From NCBI RefSeq assembly GCF_038396675.1, contig NC_088921.1:47022501-47086500 (forward strand): 64,000 nt of DNA. Direction: 5' to 3'. The notes under the pieces were generated by a model. The model was not told the origin of the DNA. It made no database searches and saw only the letters and a program-made list of their open reading frames with translations. Below, piece after piece: positions 480 to 16,178 of the stretch. The stretch comes from Hydra vulgaris. Taxonomy: Eukaryota > Cnidaria > Hydrozoa > Anthoathecata > Hydridae. The position numbers and the translations under genes were made by a program. Every line of letters starts with the position of its first letter. Within the stretch, counting starts at the first letter, position 1.

Positions 480-1803
480 GGGGTCGTCCATAAAGTACGT
501 ACGCTCATAGGGGGGAGGGGGGGTCTTCAAAAAGCGTACGAAAGCGTATGGGAGGGGGGGGGGGGAGGGTTCAATTTAAAAGTACGTACTTCGATTTTCT
601 AATTTATCACAATTAACCAGCTAATCAATAGAAAAGTTACATTCTGACTAAAGATTCTAGTTTGCCAACATAAAAAGATGTATGGTATATGAAGTAGAGG
701 GTATAGTTTTCCTCTATGCACACACATGTATGGGCGCCCTCAGAATTTTTTGATGTTCCAGATAGGACACTTTCACACATCGTGCAAACTCATAACTTAA
801 GTTTGTTTATACCTATGCCAAATGAGGAGGCCTTGCAAAATATCGGGATGGCGGAGGCCTGTGAACAAAAAGCCTTAAAACGCTTACCCTCCCGACCCCC
901 AAAATGAGAGGGGTGTAAATTTTGCATGGTTATAACTTTTAGATTTGGAAAAAAATTTGGATGGCCTCCGCCATCCAAATTTTATGCAAGGCCACCTCAT
1001 TTGGCATATTAACAAACTTAAGTTTGCACGTTGTGTGAAAGTGTTCTATCATCAAAAATCAAAACATCAAAAAATCCTGAGGGGGCCCATGCACACATGC
1101 CCGCCCTTATATACTGGCCCTGAGTAAGACCTGAGGGCCGTGGTTGATGGGACGGAGTCACCCCAAAAAAAACGTGTCAATGGCGTCTCAAAGATCGCTA
1201 GGTTTTGCTAAAATAAAAAGTTTCTTAAAATAGCAAAAGGGCACAAAATTTGCTGTTGCTCCCTCCCACTGGGTTTTACCCTTTGTTTTCAATATTACTG
1301 ATCTCACCTTAGACTCGTTTTTTACTTACTAAAGAGGGGTGCCTGAAAAAAACGTCCACCTTAAGTATAGTTTATTTACATTTGATTCGTTAAAAAAACA
1401 AAAAAAGTTTTCCTAGATTTCACAATCTCTGGATCTCCGTCGTCTAATGCCGCCGCATAAACCTTTCGCCCAAATACACACTTACATTTGTAAATTTTAA
1501 ATTTATTTAAATTATTATTTGCATTTATACTTAAAGACTTTTTTTAAAATGCGTAAGCAAAAAGCTTTGGGGTAGTATAAAGTATCTAAGGTACCCTCCG
1601 TCTTTTTTTTTTTTAATTAAACTTTTTAATTAAGAAAAAAAAAACAGGAGGGATCGGGGGGGGATATTTGAGGGGGGGGGGGGATAATTGAGAAACGTAC
1701 GTAATTTTAAGGGGGGGTGGGGACATAAAAGTACGCATGGCAACAGGGGGGAGGGGGGGTCAAATTTCAAAATTTTTGGCGTACGTACTTTATGGACGAC
1801 CCC
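480..1803. mobile_element. Non-autonomous DNA transposon with GGGGTCGTCCAT ends
   Basis: The first 25 bases (480-504, GGGGTCGTCCATAAAGTACG...) are repeated inverted at 1779-1803. The flanks show a 3-bp duplication TAA (477-479 and 1804-1806). A 3-bp TAA duplication suits the PIF/Harbinger group, which is inference. The body has no transposase. It contains G-rich runs near both ends (about 510-560 and 1640-1760), a nested foldback (724-1100) and A/T-rich filler. The frames open in it are low-complexity and are not supported as genes. Confidence 0.85.
724..1100. repeat. Nested foldback (long inverted repeat) inside the MITE
   Basis: Bases 724-868 pair with 958-1100 as imperfect inverted arms (for example GGGCGCCCTCAG against CTGAGGGGGCCC, and GCCAAATGAGGAGGCC against GGCCACCTCATTTGGC), with a loop of about 90 bases. 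The order of motifs within an arm (ACACAC..., GGGC.GCCC, AGAATTTT, GATAGG, CAAATGAGGA, CTTGCAAAA) parallels the arms of the element at 10820-15133, so it looks like a short derivative of that family. Confidence 0.7.
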
Positions 1804-2060
1804 TAAGCCAGAGGCATATTTATCAAAAGTTGGAGAGTCACAACAAGATCTTTCTAATCAAAATTTAAAACAATTTTCCAATCCATTTATATTATTCTTT
1901 ATATAATAAAAAAAATGATAATGAAAGTGTATCCGTATTTTAGCATAAATATTTTATAAAATTTTTTTTAATTGTCAACTTTTAAAGACCTTTTCTTTCT
2001 ATTTTTAAGTTCGTTTGATTTTATGCTTTTGTAACTCATTTTAGTCGTTATTGATTTGTT

Positions 2061-2118
2061 TAAACTACGGTTTAAACAAAATCACGGTTTAAACAAAATC
2101 ACGTTTTAAACCACGGTA
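2061..2118. repeat. Short tandem and inverted repeat of ACGGTTTAAAC
   Basis: ACGGTTTAAACAAAATC occurs twice in tandem, followed by a third, inverted and degenerate copy (ACGTTTTAAACCACGG). No function is apparent. The rest of 1807-2960 is AT-rich DNA in which I see nothing else. Confidence 0.5.
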
Positions 2119-2968
2119 GAATAACAAATTTTTGATCTTTTTCCATAAAAATATCTAATCGCTTTTGAGTTCTTATATCTCGTCTAAACAAAAATGTCTT
2201 CATTGAAATAGCTTGAAAAAAAATGTCTTTATTGGAATAGCTGGAATAAAATAAATTTATAAAATTTATCACAATGTTTTTCAGGCGGCTGCACGTTATT
2301 GCTCTTGCGTGTAAACAATATTGCTTTCTATTATTATGTAATTGTAATGCAATAATTCGATTGCAATCGAAAGTTTATTACTTTTTTGCTTGGAAGTTTT
2401 ATATTTGGAGTGAAATTATACTGAATACTTTTGCCATATAAATTATATTAAAAAATTTATTTTATAAAATTTGTTATATAAATTTTTTTTTTTTTAGTTA
2501 TAAGTTTGCCGTTTAAAATAATTACATTTCTCGTATTGGTAAAATATACACATGGTGGGGGCAAGAAAAAGACAAATTAGTCTTACCGCCAAGCTCCCAA
2601 AAATCCGTAAATAATATAGCTATCAAATCATTAAAAATGTTGTCAAAATATAAAAAGGAAAAAAAAAAAGATATTTTTTCTTTTTTTAATAGTAAAGATA
2701 ATAAATTCTAAAACTTATTTTCAAATACAATTGAACACAAAGCAAAAATAAAAAATAAACAAACGAAAAAAAAAAAAAAGATATTTAAAACTATATATAG
2801 AAGTTTTTAATTATTGCGATTCAGAATTCCTAATTAGGAAGTATAATGAAAAGAATTTAGGATTTTAAGGAAAAATTTTTAGTTTTTCATAATAAGAAAA
2901 TAAAAAATAAGGTTTTAGAGAACTAAATTTTTAAACCTTTGCAAACAACATGAAAATATACTATGCAA

Positions 2969-5694
2969 CATGGCCTACTATATAACACGGCCGGATTTGT
3001 TGCCTTGAACGCAAAAAATTAGTGGGCCGAAAAAACACGAGTTTGAAGTTTACAATGAACCGATTTAACAATCTTAAATTAAACTTTTTTTAATTCAAGT
3101 AATACTTTATTTTGCAATGCCAAAAAAGTGTTGTGTTGTTGGTTGTAGAAGTAATTATAAGCGAAAGATTGAAGAATGTTCCAGCAACAGCAACCACGTA
3201 ACATACAAAACTGTGTTTAGTTTTCCTGATAGCAATCAGTTAGATCTTCGAAATTGTTGGATTAAGTTTGTCAACCGAGCTGATTGGAGCCCCACAGAAA
3301 ACTCAGTTATATGTATCGATCATTTTGAAGATAAATATTTGAAAAGAGGTAAACGTATAACATTGAATTATTGCGAAAATCCTATACCAACAATTATTAC
3401 CAACCAAAACATCCTATCAAAGCCATCTTTAATTCAATCAACCTCAGCTTTACGTAAGCCCCCTGCAGTTCGTATATATTCTCATCCTTTTCTCGATGAA
3501 ACATACGATTTTAGAAAACATGAGACAATTAAAAGCATTATAGATCTTAATGAAAGTTTTTGTCCAGCAGGATTTTCATTTAAACTAGTTGATAACCGTG
3601 TGTTATTTCTTCGAATTTATTTCGACGATGGGGATGTTACTCCTAACATTGAGAGTATTACTATTGATAAAGACTTACATGTAAAGCTACATATGAAAGG
3701 TATCCCAGTTCCATTGCCTAAATGGTTTAGAGAAGGCAGTGTTTGTAAATTGACCAGTGCCAGTATGCTTGTTAATTTTGTTTCTTATATGCATGAAGTT
3801 GCAAAGAACGTATCAAAAAGTGTATTATCAGATTTATATAAATTATCTCTTTATAAACCACAAGGACGTCCAATCTACACAAATGAAATCATTAGATTTT
3901 CTCTAATGCACAGATATACATCAAAGCAGGCTTATACTTTGCTATTAGAAGAGTTTCCACTTCCTTCGTTGTCTTATTTAAAATCACTTTCAAAGGGTGG
4001 CATTGATCCATTATCAGGATTATTATTACTTTTGGAAAATGGTAGTATTAGTGCTGACTGTGTTGTTTTAATTGATGAGATGTATTTACAAAAAGGTGTC
4101 CAATATCATGGAGGAAGTTTAATTGGTGCTGATGATGATGGTAATTTCTATTCTGGTATAGTTGTGTTCATGGTGGTTAGCTTGAAAGAATCTATCCCCT
4201 TTGTAATTAAGGCCTGTCCAGAATTTCAAATTTTTGGTTCTATGATTAGTTCACATATAGAAGAAACGTTAGATACTTTATATAAAGCATCTTTTAATGT
4301 GCGAGCTATAATAACTGACAATCATGCAACAAATGTTTCAGCATTTAAAATTCTACGTTTAAAGTTTGGTGAACAAGATAATGAAATATATTTTACTTTT
4401 ATAGGACACCGGGTTTACAATTTATATGACAGTGTTCATTTACTGAAAAACATTAGAAATAATTTATTAAATTCAAAACGGTTTGTATTTCCACCTTTTG
4501 ATTTTATTGAGTTTGATGATATTATTCATGTTGAAGCTGGAGAAATTTCTTGGAGTTTATTGCATAATGTTTATGAGAAAGACGAATTGTTACCTGCTAA
4601 CTTAAAAAAAGCTTTCAAATTGTCTGCCCAAACTTTACATCCAGGAAACAACAAACAAAGTGTTCCTTTTTTAATTAAAGCCAATATCAATTGTTGGACG
4701 AGCACTTAAACTTGATACAAAAATTGACGAAAATGAACTTTTAATAAAATTGGAAAAATATAGCAATGAAATTCAAGAGAATGAGCTTTGTCATGACTCT
4801 TACGAAGTTGCAATCAATATATCTGGTTACATCACGAAAAAGATTAGGGATAAATATAACTGTTCTAACTGTCTGAAATCATTAAGTTTCAATAAAGTCT
4901 CAACAGAATATCTGGAAATTTTTTCACGTGGTGGTTTAACAAAACCTTCCAAAGAATTAGCTAACTATGTTTGTAATGGGTTTATAATTCTGGACACTGT
5001 AAAGAAAATGTTATTAAAGTATTCCCATGATATAAAAAATGCATCCTTGCTAGCGCTAGAAAAATATCAACCAAGTGATAGTGATTTTATGTGTATAGAA
5101 CATGAGGAATGGGGAAGGCATTTGGTAAACACAATTATTACCAACATATATTTTAACAATGAGCAACAAATTAAAAATGGAAACATTAGAAAAAATGAAG
5201 TTGCTGCCTTTAAAGTTTGACAAACCAAAAAAGACAAATGAATAAACCCATAACAACATAGTATATGTATATTGTTTTTTTGAGAAACAAAAGAAACTTG
5301 ACTTGATTAATCTTTTTGTAATATATGTAAATGCTTTCAGTAAATGTGTACATTTAAAAATTATGCTAGTTTTACTAACATTTTTGTTAATTTTAGTTGT
5401 TTGAACCAATGATTTTAAGACTAAGATTTTGTAGATTAAAATTGATGGCTAAAATAGATAGTTCATTCGGCTTAATGCAATCATGATTTATTATTAGCTA
5501 ACTGTTTTAGTGTTTGAAGGTTAAGAATTTTGGTAATTGTAATAATTATAGCTAAGAGCAAATTATTTAAATATTATTAATGTCTTTATAGAATTACCTT
5601 CAGGTTTTGATTCAAAAGCTAAAAACCTAAAATCGGCCCACTAATTTTTTGCGTTTAAGGCAACAAATCCGGCCGTGTTATATAGTAGGCCATG
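2969..5694 (+). mobile_element. P-element-type DNA transposon
   Basis: Inverted terminal repeats of about 60 bases run from 2969 (CATGGCCTACTATATAACAC...) and to 5694, with about one mismatch. Both ends begin CATG, as in Drosophila P. The flanks carry TATGCAA directly repeated (2962-2968 and 5695-5701), a 7-bp duplication close to the 8 bp usual for P elements. One THAP-domain transposase gene lies inside on the same strand. The family assignment rests on both the ends and the protein. Confidence 0.92.
3117..5220 (+). pseudogene. P-element/THAP9-like transposase, one frameshift
   Basis: The first 530 codons (3117-4709) begin with a C2CH THAP zinc finger: Cys5, Cys10, Cys66 and His69, with conserved Pro37 and Trp48. 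A P-element transposase body follows, with an RNase H-like core (Asp in VLIDEMYL, Asp in AIITDNHATN) and a DSVHLLKNIRNN segment. A different frame then continues from about 4675 to 5220 with the typical C-terminal ISGYITKKI and a CxxC. The two frames meet in the T/A run near 4670-4680, so a single-base indel there explains the break. Apart from this the gene looks complete for the family. It cuts and pastes its own element from the nucleus. I chose the start because the ATG immediately precedes the THAP cysteines. Confidence 0.88.
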
Positions 5695-10819: not shown

Positions 10820-11417
10820 CACGGTGCATAGGAACATACTCTAAGACCTTGCAACACATCCCCAGAGATTTTATTTTTGATTATCATTAGAAAACTTTTC
10901 CTCATTCAAAAAATGTAAACGACAACTTTTTTTAGTGGGGGCCTGGGGAGAAAACACACATTTTAGGGCAGTGCCCAGGAATTTTGTTGTTCAAGATAGG
11001 TAGCTAATAAGCATGGGGCATACTCAAATTTTTAGTATGTTGATACTGGTAGCAAATGAGGATGACTTGCAAAAAATTAAGGTAATTAAAGCTAAACCAA
11101 CCCCGCCCCGATCCCTAACTGCCCCCTTCCTAGAACTACGTCTCTTTTAATCGTAAATTTTTTTTTTTGTTCTATTATAAAGTAGATCAAAATTCATTGA
11201 CAGATTTCAAATTTCATCAAAAAATCTCTTTTCGTTTAAGATTTATAACAATGCAAAGCCTAAAATTACCCCCTGAAATAACCTTAAATGGTCTCAACTT
11301 TTAAACGAAAAATTTTTTTTTGATGTAATTTGAAATCTGTCGATGAACTTTGATCTAGTTTAATATAAAACAAGCAAAAAGTTGAAAAGTGTTTTTTGGA
11401 ACCATACCCTGGGGAGG
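10820..11417. repeat. Left inverted terminal repeat of the long-TIR element
   Basis: It begins CACGGTGCATAGG and ends near CCATACCCTGGGGAGGG, after which the two arms diverge. It contains GGGGCCTGGGGAG, TAGGGCAGTGCCCAGG and the CCAACCCCGCCCCGATCCC block shared with the right arm. Confidence 0.85.
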
Positions 11418-11596
11418 GCTATAAGGGGTCGAGAAGGGTTTGCTACAATTATTTATTACAGTAAAAAAAAAACTCTGATTTTTATGGTTACATTATGATT
11501 GATATTTTTCATTTCAAAGTCATACTAAACGTTTGTTCATAGGAGATTTAACACTTTACTTTTTACAAACTACATTCCTGCAAATAGAAAGCTACT

Positions 11597-14115
11597 TTAA
11601 AAGTGCTTGTAGTTGTAAGCAACAACCGCGTTTTTCAGCGCCTCTATATAGTTTGGGCTGTGCTCTCCAACTTTTCTCATTCGCCAAAACTGATTGAAAT
11701 CCTGATGAATGGATTCGAGAGCTTGTTCAGTCCAGTAACCTAAGCCTATAGAACAGTAGAAGTACAAAAGAAATGCAAGTTTAATTAATAAATATTCGTC
11801 GTAAATTATGCAAAATTTACGATTCAACTGTTGAAATAGAGTATTTAATTACTAAGATTATAAATAATTTTTAATCAAATTTAAAAGTTATTTATCATAC
11901 CAAAGACTCCACCTTTCATGTTGATAAATTCAATAACATGTTGCTCAATTATGTGTACCTTCAAAGGAATTGTAGCCCTTAGATTTCTATAGCTCGTAGA
12001 GAACTCCTCTAGATCTTTAACATACGTGGAGCTTAATGATTTTCCAAAACAACCATGGACTATTTTTCAAAATCTCTAAGTACCTTAATATATTTGGCAG
12101 CGGAAACTCCAAGACTAAACTCTTGAAAAAACAGTTCAAAGCTGTCTATGTTTTTAAGCAATTTATGACAAGCATTGCCTACCAAACGATGCTGCCCTTG
12201 GTAGGACACTCTGCAGATGTTTATTTTAGACAGACATTGATTAACAAACTGTAACCCACACTCCTTGTTTTCAAATAAATTTTTTTCAATCTCTTTTAAA
12301 ATTTTGTCTACAACACCTAGCAGTATATGTAGTCCAGGAATATTTACAAGTTCTAGTATTTTTTTGTTTTTGTTGCCTGTTAATAAAGGGGAGTTAACAA
12401 CATTAGTGTATTTTTTAGCTTTTTTTAAATTTGCACCATCAGCCATCCATTGGTCATACAATGTACACAAAGACTCTAGAGTATAATGATCAGCTTTTTG
12501 AAAGTTAGGAGATGACGTCATGCAATACGGACAAGGGTGTTTTGATGTTGCAGTTTGTTTTCCAACCATTTGAAGCAAAATCTTTAGATCTTCAGATACT
12601 GTGTAATCTAAGGATGAAATGTTTAGCTTATCCAATATTAACCGCAAGTTATGGTATTTTTCGTTCAATGAAAGCAAAATGGCCAATATAATAGTTTTGT
12701 GGACGCTTGAATCTTTAAAATCTTTGCACGCATATCCGTCACTCTTGCTCAGTTTCTCTGGAATTTTATTATTTTTTAACTCTGGTTTTAGGGTTATTGA
12801 CAGTGTAACTTTTAGGAATCCCTGCCCTCCATCTACACCTAATTTGATATCAACATCATTTGTTTCTTGACTTCTGTGATGAAGTACCATTGCTACGAGT
12901 TCTTCAATGTCATTGCAATACACAATAGGAGTATCTTTTTCTACCAACTATACATTCATAAAAAATCAAAATGAATAATACAAATTGCAATCTAGCTATA
13001 AAATAATTTTTTTGGAAATAGTTTACTTACCTCTTCGCTTTCTTTTAATTTTAATAGCAATGGGAGTTTATCACAATTGAATAAATTTCCAATTATTTCG
13101 TTGTTCTCAATCAGTTTAATATTGAAACCGGATTCCACACTTTTTCGTCCTGCCTCACTTCTCAGAAATCGTGCAACTTCAATCATGTTGCGATTACTTA
13201 TAAATCATAATAAAGTTATTACAAAAATTGGCTTTAAACTCATAACAAATTTATTTTTAAAAGTATTTTTAAGCAACAAAAATTTACCTGGAATGTAGTT
13301 TTAATTGAAGTTTGTTCAATTTATCTAAAGAAAAGAAAGGTTTCTTAACCTCAGTCTTTCCGAAAGAGACAGTGAGTTGCTTCGGACCAAAGGTTTTCAA
13401 AACTAAGGTGTTCTCTGAGTCATTTGTGCTGAAATCTTTGATAGAGCTGGACAGAACTTTTCCTTGCGTTGTTGGGGATGTTGATTTTACAATGGCAGTC
13501 AAATTCTTTTGTCTTTCTAATTTCGTACAGGGATGTGGAATTCCCTGTCCCACTTGGGCATAACAATGTTGACAAACTAGTCTTTCTGTAGGTTTATTTG
13601 AAACATCTTCAGCGCCTTGATAAACAAGCTTTCCCGAAACACAATCAACCATTGGGGCCAATATTTTTTCCATTTTTGATTTGCGCCCATTTTCACAAAT
13701 AAAACATTCACATTTTTTCCCTCTAATAACTCTGGTATTCAGGTCTAAATTTTATAGCACTTGTATGACAACTGTAATAACTAAAATAGCAAAACTAAAT
13801 TTTAAATGAAGTAAATTAAACATCAATATTGTTATAATTACCTTCATAACACGGCCGCATAATGAAGTAAGGATCAGTCCCTGTAAGCTTTTTTCTACAT
13901 TTTGAGCAAAGCATGGTAGGAAGGTCAGGATTATCCGCTGAATAATCTTTCCAGAATATAGTTTTGATAAGGTTTGAGTAGTCATTTTTCTTTTTATTTA
14001 GATTTAAATAAGTTGTTTCAGGGTTATTTATTGGTCTTAAATCCGTGCCTTTCCTGAAGCAGCAAATGCAAAAAATTTTTACAAAATCACTATGTTCTTT
14101 TGCATGTTTAGGCAT
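11597..14115 (-). pseudogene. Putative transposase of the long-TIR element, five exons, one frameshift
   Basis: The exons that join in phase are 14115-13842, 13744-13288, 13196-13031, 12947-11901 and 11745-11597, each with GT-AG borders, giving about 697 residues. The start is ATG 14115 (MPKHAKEHSDF); a second in-frame ATG lies 18 bases upstream. The N-terminus is Cys-rich (FCICC, LCSKC, KCECFIC, VCQHC), so probably zinc-binding. The core has GVDGGQG, a CPYC pair, IPGLHILLGVVD and GNACHKLLKNID. The C-terminus has WTEQALESIHQDF. Asp in GVDGG, Asp in GVVD and Glu in WTEQALE could form a DDE triad (inference). One base is missing in an A-run near 12062-12067, so the fourth exon shifts frame. The family recurs in cnidarian genomes as I remember it, but I cannot name it. 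Confidence 0.68.
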
Positions 14116-14539
14116 TTTAAATGAATGCTTCAAATAAAAACTTCTGATATGGATTGATAATATTGGTATGATATATCGGTTATATCAATCAAATGTCAAT
14201 ATAATGCCTATAAACACATGTCAATATAATGGCTAAAAACATGCTTTCAGTTTGTATATCAACGCGTGCAAAGAGTTATTATGCAACTGTTAACAATTAG
14301 CAACTGCTAACTTTTACTAATTGTTAATAATTAAAGGATGCTTTGCTTTGTTTTTATTTCAATAAAAATGTAAATAGAAAGTAATAAAAATTACTTATCC
14401 GTCTGTAAATTTTAATGTTAAACAAAAATTTTTAAAAACTTTAAAAAATAAAATTGATAAATCTATCACAAATATTTCTGAAAATCTAAATATGGGGCAT
14501 GGGCATGATTTTGTGGTGGTCGAGAAGATTCCCCAAATC

Positions 14540-15133
14540 CCCCCTAGGGTATGGTTCCAAAAAACACTTTTCAACTTTTTGCTTGTTTTATATTAAACTA
14601 GATCAAAGTTCATCGACAGATTTCAAATTACATCAAAAAAAAAATTTTCGTTTAAAAGTTGAGACCATTTAAGGTTATTTCAGGGGGTAATTTTAGGCTT
14701 TGCATTGTTATAAATCTTAAACGAAAAGAGATTTTTTGATGAAGTTTGAAATCTGTCGATGATTTTGATCTACTTTATGATAAAACAAAAAAAAATTTAC
14801 GATTAAAGGAGTCGTAGTTCTAGGAAGGGGGCAGTTAGGGATCGGGGCGGGGTTGGTTTAGCTTTAATTACCTTAATTTTTTGCAAGTCATCCTCATTTG
14901 CTACCAGTATCAACATACTAAAAATTTGAGTATGCCCCATGCTTATTAGCTACCTATCATGAACAACAAAATTCCTGGGCACTGCCCTAAAATGTGTGTT
15001 TTCTCCCCAGGCCCCCACTAAAAAAAGTTGTCGTTTACATTTTTTGAATGAGGAAATGTTTTCTAATGATAATCAAAAATAAAATCTCTGGGGATGTGTT
15101 GCAAGGTCTTAGAGTATGTTCCTATGCACCGTG
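14540..15133. repeat. Right inverted terminal repeat of the long-TIR element
   Basis: Inverted copy of 10820-11417, ending CCTATGCACCGTG. The transposase start lies about 420 bases inside it, so the arm probably carries the promoter (inference). Confidence 0.85.
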
Positions 15134-15154: not shown

Positions 15155-16178
15155 ACGTGGCAATTTTCTATAAACGCACTAAAGTTTTTACGAGTTTTTA
15201 CGAGCAATTTACTATAGACGCACTAAACTTTTTACGAGTTTTGTCGCAAATTTCTTATATTCTGTAGTATTTTTTATTTTGTGAGTCGAAATTAAGTTGA
15301 ACTTAACCGAATGCCGAAAGGAAAGGTCCTTACCGATATTGAAAAATGTCAAATATTGGATTATCACCGAGAAAAAGTTCCAAATCGAGAAATTGCTTGA
15401 AGATTGAAGAGATCAGATCACGTTATTCGTAATTTCTTGAAAAATCTAACAGAATATGCAACAATCAAGAGGAAGCCAAAGAAATCTAAGGTTTCAGGCC
15501 GTGAAAAACGCAGAATTGTTCGACTCGCATCAAACTCATCAAAAAGTTTGAAAACAATTAAGTCAGATTTGGGTTTAAATGTTTGCAAGGAGACGACTAG
15601 GAAAGGAGAGAAACCAAATATTTTTCGAGAAGGAATTTCGGCGGTGGATTTTTGATGGTTTGACTTGGGTTTTGGGCTACAGGAATGTTAAATTTAGCAT
15701 TAACATCTTGCAAAATGAAAAGTTCTGAATACATTGATGTGCTAAAGTTATGTTTAATTCCATTTAAAAATAAATATCGACGCAAAAAGTTTGTTTTTCA
15801 ACAAGACAACGCCAGCATTCACACTAGTAACGAGACTAAAGCTTGGTTTGAAGCTAAAAAAAACGACCAAATGTGGTGGCCTGCTCGCAGTCCAGATTTG
15901 AACCCTGTTGTAAACATCTGGGGAATAATTGTAAGACGAATCTATGCTGACCAGAAGCAATATGACTCTGTGGCAGATCTAAAAGTAGCGGTATCAGAAT
16001 GCTGGGAAGATATGGAGCCAAAAGTGCTGGAAAACTTGGTGGGAAGTATGTTAAAACGAATTTATCAGGTAATTGAACGCAAAGGAGGTCCAATCGAGTA
16101 CTTAAAATGCAATAAAAATATTTTTTTTGATAGTTTTGTTAAAAAATGTGAACTGCGTCTATAGAAAATAGTCAGCTA
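15155..16178 (+). mobile_element. Tc1-like element, decayed
   Basis: TTTTCTATAAACGCACT at 15164-15180 is matched inverted by AACTGCGTCTATAGAAAATA at 16151-16170, and a second near-copy of the left repeat lies at about 15209-15227. TA dinucleotides flank at 15153-15154 and 16177-16178, the usual Tc1/mariner target, although the outermost bases of the two ends do not match well. A broken transposase gene lies inside. Confidence 0.7.
15311..16164 (+). pseudogene. Tc1-like transposase (DD34E type), inactive
   Basis: From ATG 15311 a helix-turn-helix region reads through a TGA at 15398-15400 to about 15655. The catalytic half then continues in another frame (15685-16164). The second Asp is in FQQDNASIHT. 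At 34 residues' spacing the expected Glu of DLNPxEN is Val (DLNPVVNIWG). The segment that should carry the first Asp is largely deleted between about 15600 and 15660. So it has a stop, a deletion and a missing catalytic residue. The spacing places it with Tc1-like DD34E enzymes. Confidence 0.82.

Follow-up and report, generated by a model that had tools for sequence, protein, structure and literature searches.

A CACGGTG-ended DNA transposon family of Hydra vulgaris, very probably of the CMCT kind and with Chapaev-like ends and target length

The CMCT clade comprises CACTA, Mirage, Chapaev, Transib, Plavaka, ESTA, Lanisha and RAG1, and is defined by a C(2)C and an H(3-4)H motif between the second aspartate and the glutamate of the catalytic triad; the ends of its members are mostly 5'-CA..TG-3', and their target duplications are 2-5 bp long (PMC12730594). 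The hallmarks given for Chapaev are a duplication of 3-4 bp, CAC..GTG ends, and the motifs C(2)C, LH and H(4)H (PMC4079192). Here, we analyzed a 64,000-nucleotide stretch of the Hydra vulgaris genome (contig NC_088921.1, positions 47,022,501 to 47,086,500; hereafter the window), in which the unit at positions 10820-15133 (4,314 bp) is a single copy of a dispersed DNA transposon. We consider it very likely that this is a recently active cut-and-paste transposon of the CMCT kind, some copies of which look autonomous, and that it resembles Chapaev in its ends and in the length of its target duplication. Its ends, target duplication and protein motifs place the element with the known CACTA/Chapaev/Transib/RAG1 group, and not outside all known kinds.

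The mobile unit and its copies

The unit consists of two long terminal inverted repeats (the arms) that enclose one minus-strand gene of five exons (Table 1). An earlier note on this DNA, made from the sequence alone, had proposed nearly identical arms of about 595 bp that end in CACGGTG, and both proposals hold. The arms are identical in 584 of 600 aligned columns, with 4 gaps, and the CACGGTG/CACCGTG ends are consistent across copies and are confirmed by the empty sites of copy L021 described below.

Counting the window copy, at least 22 genomic matches span 4,300 or more of the 4,314 bases at 96-100% identity; this count is a lower bound, being based on the best 35 of 713 candidates of a search with the whole unit. 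The set of copies that we compared consists of the window copy and 34 further ones, some of which are truncated. An end is missing in 10 of these 35 copies; of the remaining 25, 17 are flanked by a matching 4-bp duplication. The duplicated 4-mers vary, and the length of the duplication is ambiguous in two of the 17 copies, L011 (an AT run) and L018 (an A run). Furthermore, when the flanks of copy L021 are joined by a single GTTA, the resulting junction is matched at 40 out of 40 places with 94-96% identity (best 40 of 1,287 candidates), and these places are empty sites within a dispersed repeat. Finally, all of the 40 arm matches that were compared by eye (best 40 of 634 candidates) sit at gene-carrying copies, and no case was seen among them of arms and gene moving apart, the outcome that the earlier note had named as speaking against a single element. 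Taken together, these data show a mobile unit that is bounded by CACGGTG and CACCGTG, has a gene of its own, and has recently spread to many places while generating a 4-bp duplication.

The differences that are private to individual copies amount to 0.0065-0.0072 per site and copy, and are equal across the three codon positions and the introns; in the two arms they are higher (0.0120 and 0.0176 per site and copy). This equality points to copies that have been decaying free of selection since a recent burst.

The transposase gene and its predicted protein

The four introns of the window copy are all of the GT..AG type, and the predicted splicing joins its five exons in phase. Near position 12062, in exon 4, a slip of one base breaks the frame of this copy; the gene structure put forward in the earlier note, slip included, was therefore borne out. 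That note had also anticipated a spliced transposase of about 700 residues, and a frame for such a protein is present, uninterrupted over 697 residues, with no stop and no slip, in 4 of the 35 copies (L010, L017, L032 and L034). The N-terminus of the protein is Cys-rich, as had also been noticed, and shows a weak, sub-threshold match to zf-AD. This match is the best that the whole protein has in Pfam (E 0.0098, 16.6 bits), the other matches being weaker and chance-like, and it improves to E 4.2e-4 and 20.9 bits when the first 173 residues are used, both scores lying below the zf-AD cut-off of 28 bits. A search of solved structures with the single protein gave no match, and a search with a profile, which included read-through intron residues, gave three irrelevant matches (E 0.41-0.54).

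Two divergent relatives in the same genome bear on the candidate catalytic residues. The relative L050, which is 31% identical over 128 residues, keeps D338, D419, C438 and C441, and L065, which is 33.5% identical over 170 residues (E 2e-21), keeps GNACHKLL, H631(4)H636 and [ST]EQAxE; LH506 and residue 513 fall outside both fragments. Of the DDE positions (the aspartates and the glutamate of the triad) suggested earlier, GVDGGQG and WTEQALE are thus kept in divergent relatives, whereas GVVD (D513) was dropped as the second aspartate in favor of D419 (EDLK), which is kept by L050 and is located 81 residues after D338 and 19 residues before C438 of the CPYC motif. The same spacing separates D708 from C727 in RAG1. 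Judged from these sequence comparisons, D419 is probably the second catalytic aspartate and fits better than D513. The published order of motifs was found in 309 of 20,000 shuffles of the core, and a stricter pattern, partly picked after the protein had been seen, in none of 20,000.

The relatives of the transposase form a large group in the genome: with L050 as the query, 150 matches were obtained (best 150 of 3,962 candidates), of which 12 are located in open frames of exactly 527 residues. Relatives were also observed in long open frames at C7:34996687-34997007 (1981 residues), C8:18792576-18793067 (1879 residues) and C15:29792557-29793033 (1942 residues), and it is possible that these are fusions. 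Viral contigs and phage records were searched as well, and no relatives were found in them.

The mechanism that we propose is as follows. The 697-residue protein would be a DDE transposase, whose predicted RNase H core holds D338, D419 and either E655 or E659, and in which C438, C441, H631 and H636 would form a zinc site. The Cys-rich N-terminus may aid DNA binding. The enzyme would bind the long arms and then cut at the CAC ends, after which the ends would be joined to the target with a 4-base stagger and the gaps filled by host repair, yielding the 4-bp duplication. The window copy would be a broken member of the family, mobile only with transposase made elsewhere.

Table 1. Features in and beside the transposon copy of the window (positions are those of the window).
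Feature	Position	Strand	Remarks
Left terminal inverted repeat	10820..11417	+	598 bp, starts CACGGTG
Inverted repeat inside the left arm	11160-11244 with 11296-11380		82-84% complementary (range for the repeats inside the two arms)
Exon 5	11597..11745	-	TEQALE with E655/E659, stop codon
Exon 4	11901..12947	-	D338 (GVDGG), D419 (EDLK), C438xxC441, LH506, GNACHKLL (555-563), H631(4)H636
Exon 3	13031..13196	-	
Exon 2	13288..13744	-	More Cys pairs
Exon 1	13842..14115	-	Start codon ATG at 14115; encodes the Cys-rich N-terminus, which matches zf-AD weakly
Right terminal inverted repeat	14539..15133	-	595 bp, ends CACCGTG
Inverted repeat inside the right arm	14610-14660 with 14712-14762		82-84% complementary (range for the repeats inside the two arms)
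Tc1/mariner-like transposase, broken	15401-16164	+	Directly right of the element

Comparison with Chapaev, Transib and CACTA

The element shares with the CMCT clade the location of its C438xxC441 and H631(4)H636 motifs between D419 and E655/E659; its CACGGTG..CACCGTG ends conform to the 5'-CA..TG-3' pattern, and its 4-bp duplication falls within the range of 2-5 bp. Moreover, all the Chapaev hallmarks listed in PMC4079192 are present: CAC..GTG ends, a duplication of 4 bp, CPYC at 438, LH at 506 and HIIEQH at 631. The statement in the earlier note that the protein matches no superfamily is thus true of the profile searches, but the element does carry these published hallmarks. Chapaev3 differs from the element, since its duplications are TWA (PMC4079192), whereas those observed here are variable 4-mers.

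Based on these hallmarks, and on the fact that Chapaev is known from Hydra according to the species lists of PMC4079192 and PMC4411706, the element may belong to the Chapaev superfamily proper and move by the same mechanism, and Repbase may already contain it as one of its Hydra families. We take this possibility seriously and put it a little below even chances. What argues against it is that DUF1280 (PF06918), which has been equated with Chapaev transposases (PMC3985635), gives no match in the element protein at E values up to 10, and that none of the DUF1280 places in the genome is located, by eye, at an element copy (best 150 of 291 candidates). Likewise, the element is not among the matches listed for PF12560, the profile of the Chapa/RAG1 N-terminus, which has 145 matches in the genome (best 137 of 219 candidates). 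Several of the DUF1280 places are located about 2 kb from PF12560 matches (e.g., C13:3642855 and C13:3644752), and this is the arrangement expected of Chapaev elements with a Chapa domain (PMC4411706).

On the other hand, the absence of any Pfam match to Chapaev, Transib or CACTA might be an indication that the element forms a branch of its own within the CMCT clade, at the rank of a superfamily and distinct from all three. The Chapaev and Transib elements of this genome are readily found by DUF1280 and PF12940, and the relatives retrieved with L050 make up a large group of their own, both of which would agree with a separate branch. However, a group so abundant has probably already been named by repeat annotators, Pfam covers transposases incompletely so that a missing match is weak evidence, and every hallmark fits Chapaev; we therefore regard a separate branch as unlikely. 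In its more specific form, that of an unnamed branch of the CMCT/RAG1 kin, at the level of a superfamily, that is very abundant in Hydra and has long arms, CACGGTG ends, 4-bp duplications and a Cys-rich N-terminus of its own, the proposal is equally doubtful; if true, it would supply one more outgroup for tracing how RAG1 arose. No title or abstract opening naming the family of the element was found in the literature, which is a weak negative because databases are the only place where the majority of families are described.

We file the element as a Chapaev-like CMCT element whose membership of Chapaev is unproven: it is either a branch of Chapaev that is missed by the DUF1280 and PF12560 profiles, or a lineage of its own. 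For a young transposon family of Hydra vulgaris, the analysis fixes where the element ends, how long its target duplication is, how its gene is built and which residues are probably catalytic, and this family belongs to a large related group in the Hydra genome. Should the group prove distinct from Chapaev, the kin of RAG1 would gain a lineage; should it be Chapaev, the family offers a useful example of a recent burst that has left at least two copies, L010 and L017, with intact frame, ends and motif residues. The identification is solid, and the surprise that it holds is modest.

The heptamer of the RAG signal is CACAGTG, from which CACGGTG differs by one base, and the target duplication of Transib is 5 bp. 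A faint likeness to Transib/RAG1 had been noticed in the earlier note, and it is seen both in the CAC-first ends and in the motifs, whose order (D, D, C(2)C, LH, GN motif, H(4)H, [ST]Ex(2-3)E) is that of the Hydra Transib L044 and of the solved 6pqn chain; the element differs in duplicating 4 bp, not 5 bp. The PF12940 profile (RAG1 core) has no match in the element protein, whereas the same profile finds L044 with E 3.8e-12. When the protein was aligned by hhalign to a two-sequence Transib profile, made from L044 and the 6pqn chain, the motifs were aligned collinearly, and weakly; with L065 included, the summed posterior was reached by 0 of 400 shuffles. As evidence for common descent with Transib, these sequence comparisons are no more than suggestive. 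L044 itself contains, at 1381-3027 on the minus strand, an uninterrupted Transib transposase frame of 548 residues, which matches the 6pqn chain with E 1.1e-98.

Animal CACTA relatives have their first two aspartates about 80 residues apart (PMC1636069), as compared with 81 in the element protein, in which, in addition, CxxC accompanies the second aspartate. The first part of the CACTA/TRC motif around the first aspartate (hydrophobic-x-hydrophobic-x-hydrophobic-x2-DG-x3-F; PMC1636069) fits the protein as well. In contrast, the D-x-[LM]-H-x3-L-G and W-P parts are not retained, and the ends of animal TRC elements begin with CCC and are accompanied by a 2-bp duplication (PMC1636069). Transposase_21 (PF02992, EnSpm/CACTA) gave no match in the element protein at E values up to 10.

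Other Hydra elements carry a RAG1-N-terminus-like domain, but a shared origin of the N-terminus of the protein with this domain was not shown: comparison with the domain of L056 remained at chance level (34 and 93 of 400 shuffles), with a poor alignment. L056 (31-1884, minus strand), and also L057, L058, L061 and L063, combine a PF12560-type domain (E 1.4e-10) with an RNase H of the P-element type, PF21787 (E 9.1e-23), and in L056 the two domains share one frame of 617 residues. The N-terminal domain of RAG1 is thus not confined to the RAG/Transib/Chapaev kin.

Contrary evidence, the window copy and neighboring features

Several observations weigh against our view that the family is a recently active CMCT transposon. 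A matching 4-bp duplication is absent in 8 of the 25 both-ended copies (the window copy, L009, L012, L014, L016, L024, L026 and L027), and in the window the element is flanked by TTTA on one side and by ATAA on the other. No codon-position bias was found among the copies, and therefore the codon test lends the reading frame no support of its own. As for the four copies with an uninterrupted frame, L034 has a lysine at residue 659 and one arm end only, while L032 has a reduced length of 3,889 bp; this leaves L010 and L017 as the only two that look whole. The protein matches no family profile of Pfam at the cut-off, and NCBIfam returned nothing. Structure prediction gave confidence scores (predicted local distance difference test, pLDDT) of 34 for exon 4 and of 38 for the first 165 residues of this exon, and both models were discarded. 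Furthermore, with L065 included, 18 of 400 shuffles attained the hhalign score against the Transib profile, and the score of the reversed profile was nearly equal (20.2 as compared with 20.8); without L065, the score was reached by 86 and the posterior by 7 of 400 shuffles, and the reversed profile outscored the real one (19.1 versus 17.5).

The lack of a duplication in the window copy and in the other seven copies would also fit a different explanation, according to which arms and gene are not one mobile unit and a transposase gene happens to lie between unrelated inverted repeats. The flanks of the window copy, which on the left and right match two different repeat families, point in the same direction. 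Such a chance arrangement is nevertheless highly improbable, as it is contradicted by the 17 matching duplications and by the empty sites, and as every one of the 40 arm matches (best 40 of 634 candidates) sits at a copy with the gene. For copies of a transposon, recombination between copies, or ends taken from two copies, would explain why the duplication is missing. The window copy is probably a product of such recombination between copies; its junction is spanned by 0 of 40 matches (best 40 of 276 candidates), two of which are the window itself. An inversion involving the window copy and L009, which is located 337 kb away and is likewise without a duplication, was rejected because a simple inversion would not account for the four tetramers at the flanks.

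On contig C2, the left end of the element at L036 and the right end at L037 have near-identical flanks in opposite orientation, and they are probably one insertion that was duplicated along with its surroundings. A match resembling the RAG1 N-terminus was observed beside or overlapping the element end at these two loci (C2:8456982-8457242 and C2:246234-246497).

Each arm of the window copy contains an inverted repeat of its own (Table 1), and these are also visible at other copies, as matches on the opposite strand. The neighbor directly to the right of the element is a broken Tc1/mariner-like transposase, which was recognized by eye from its translation.

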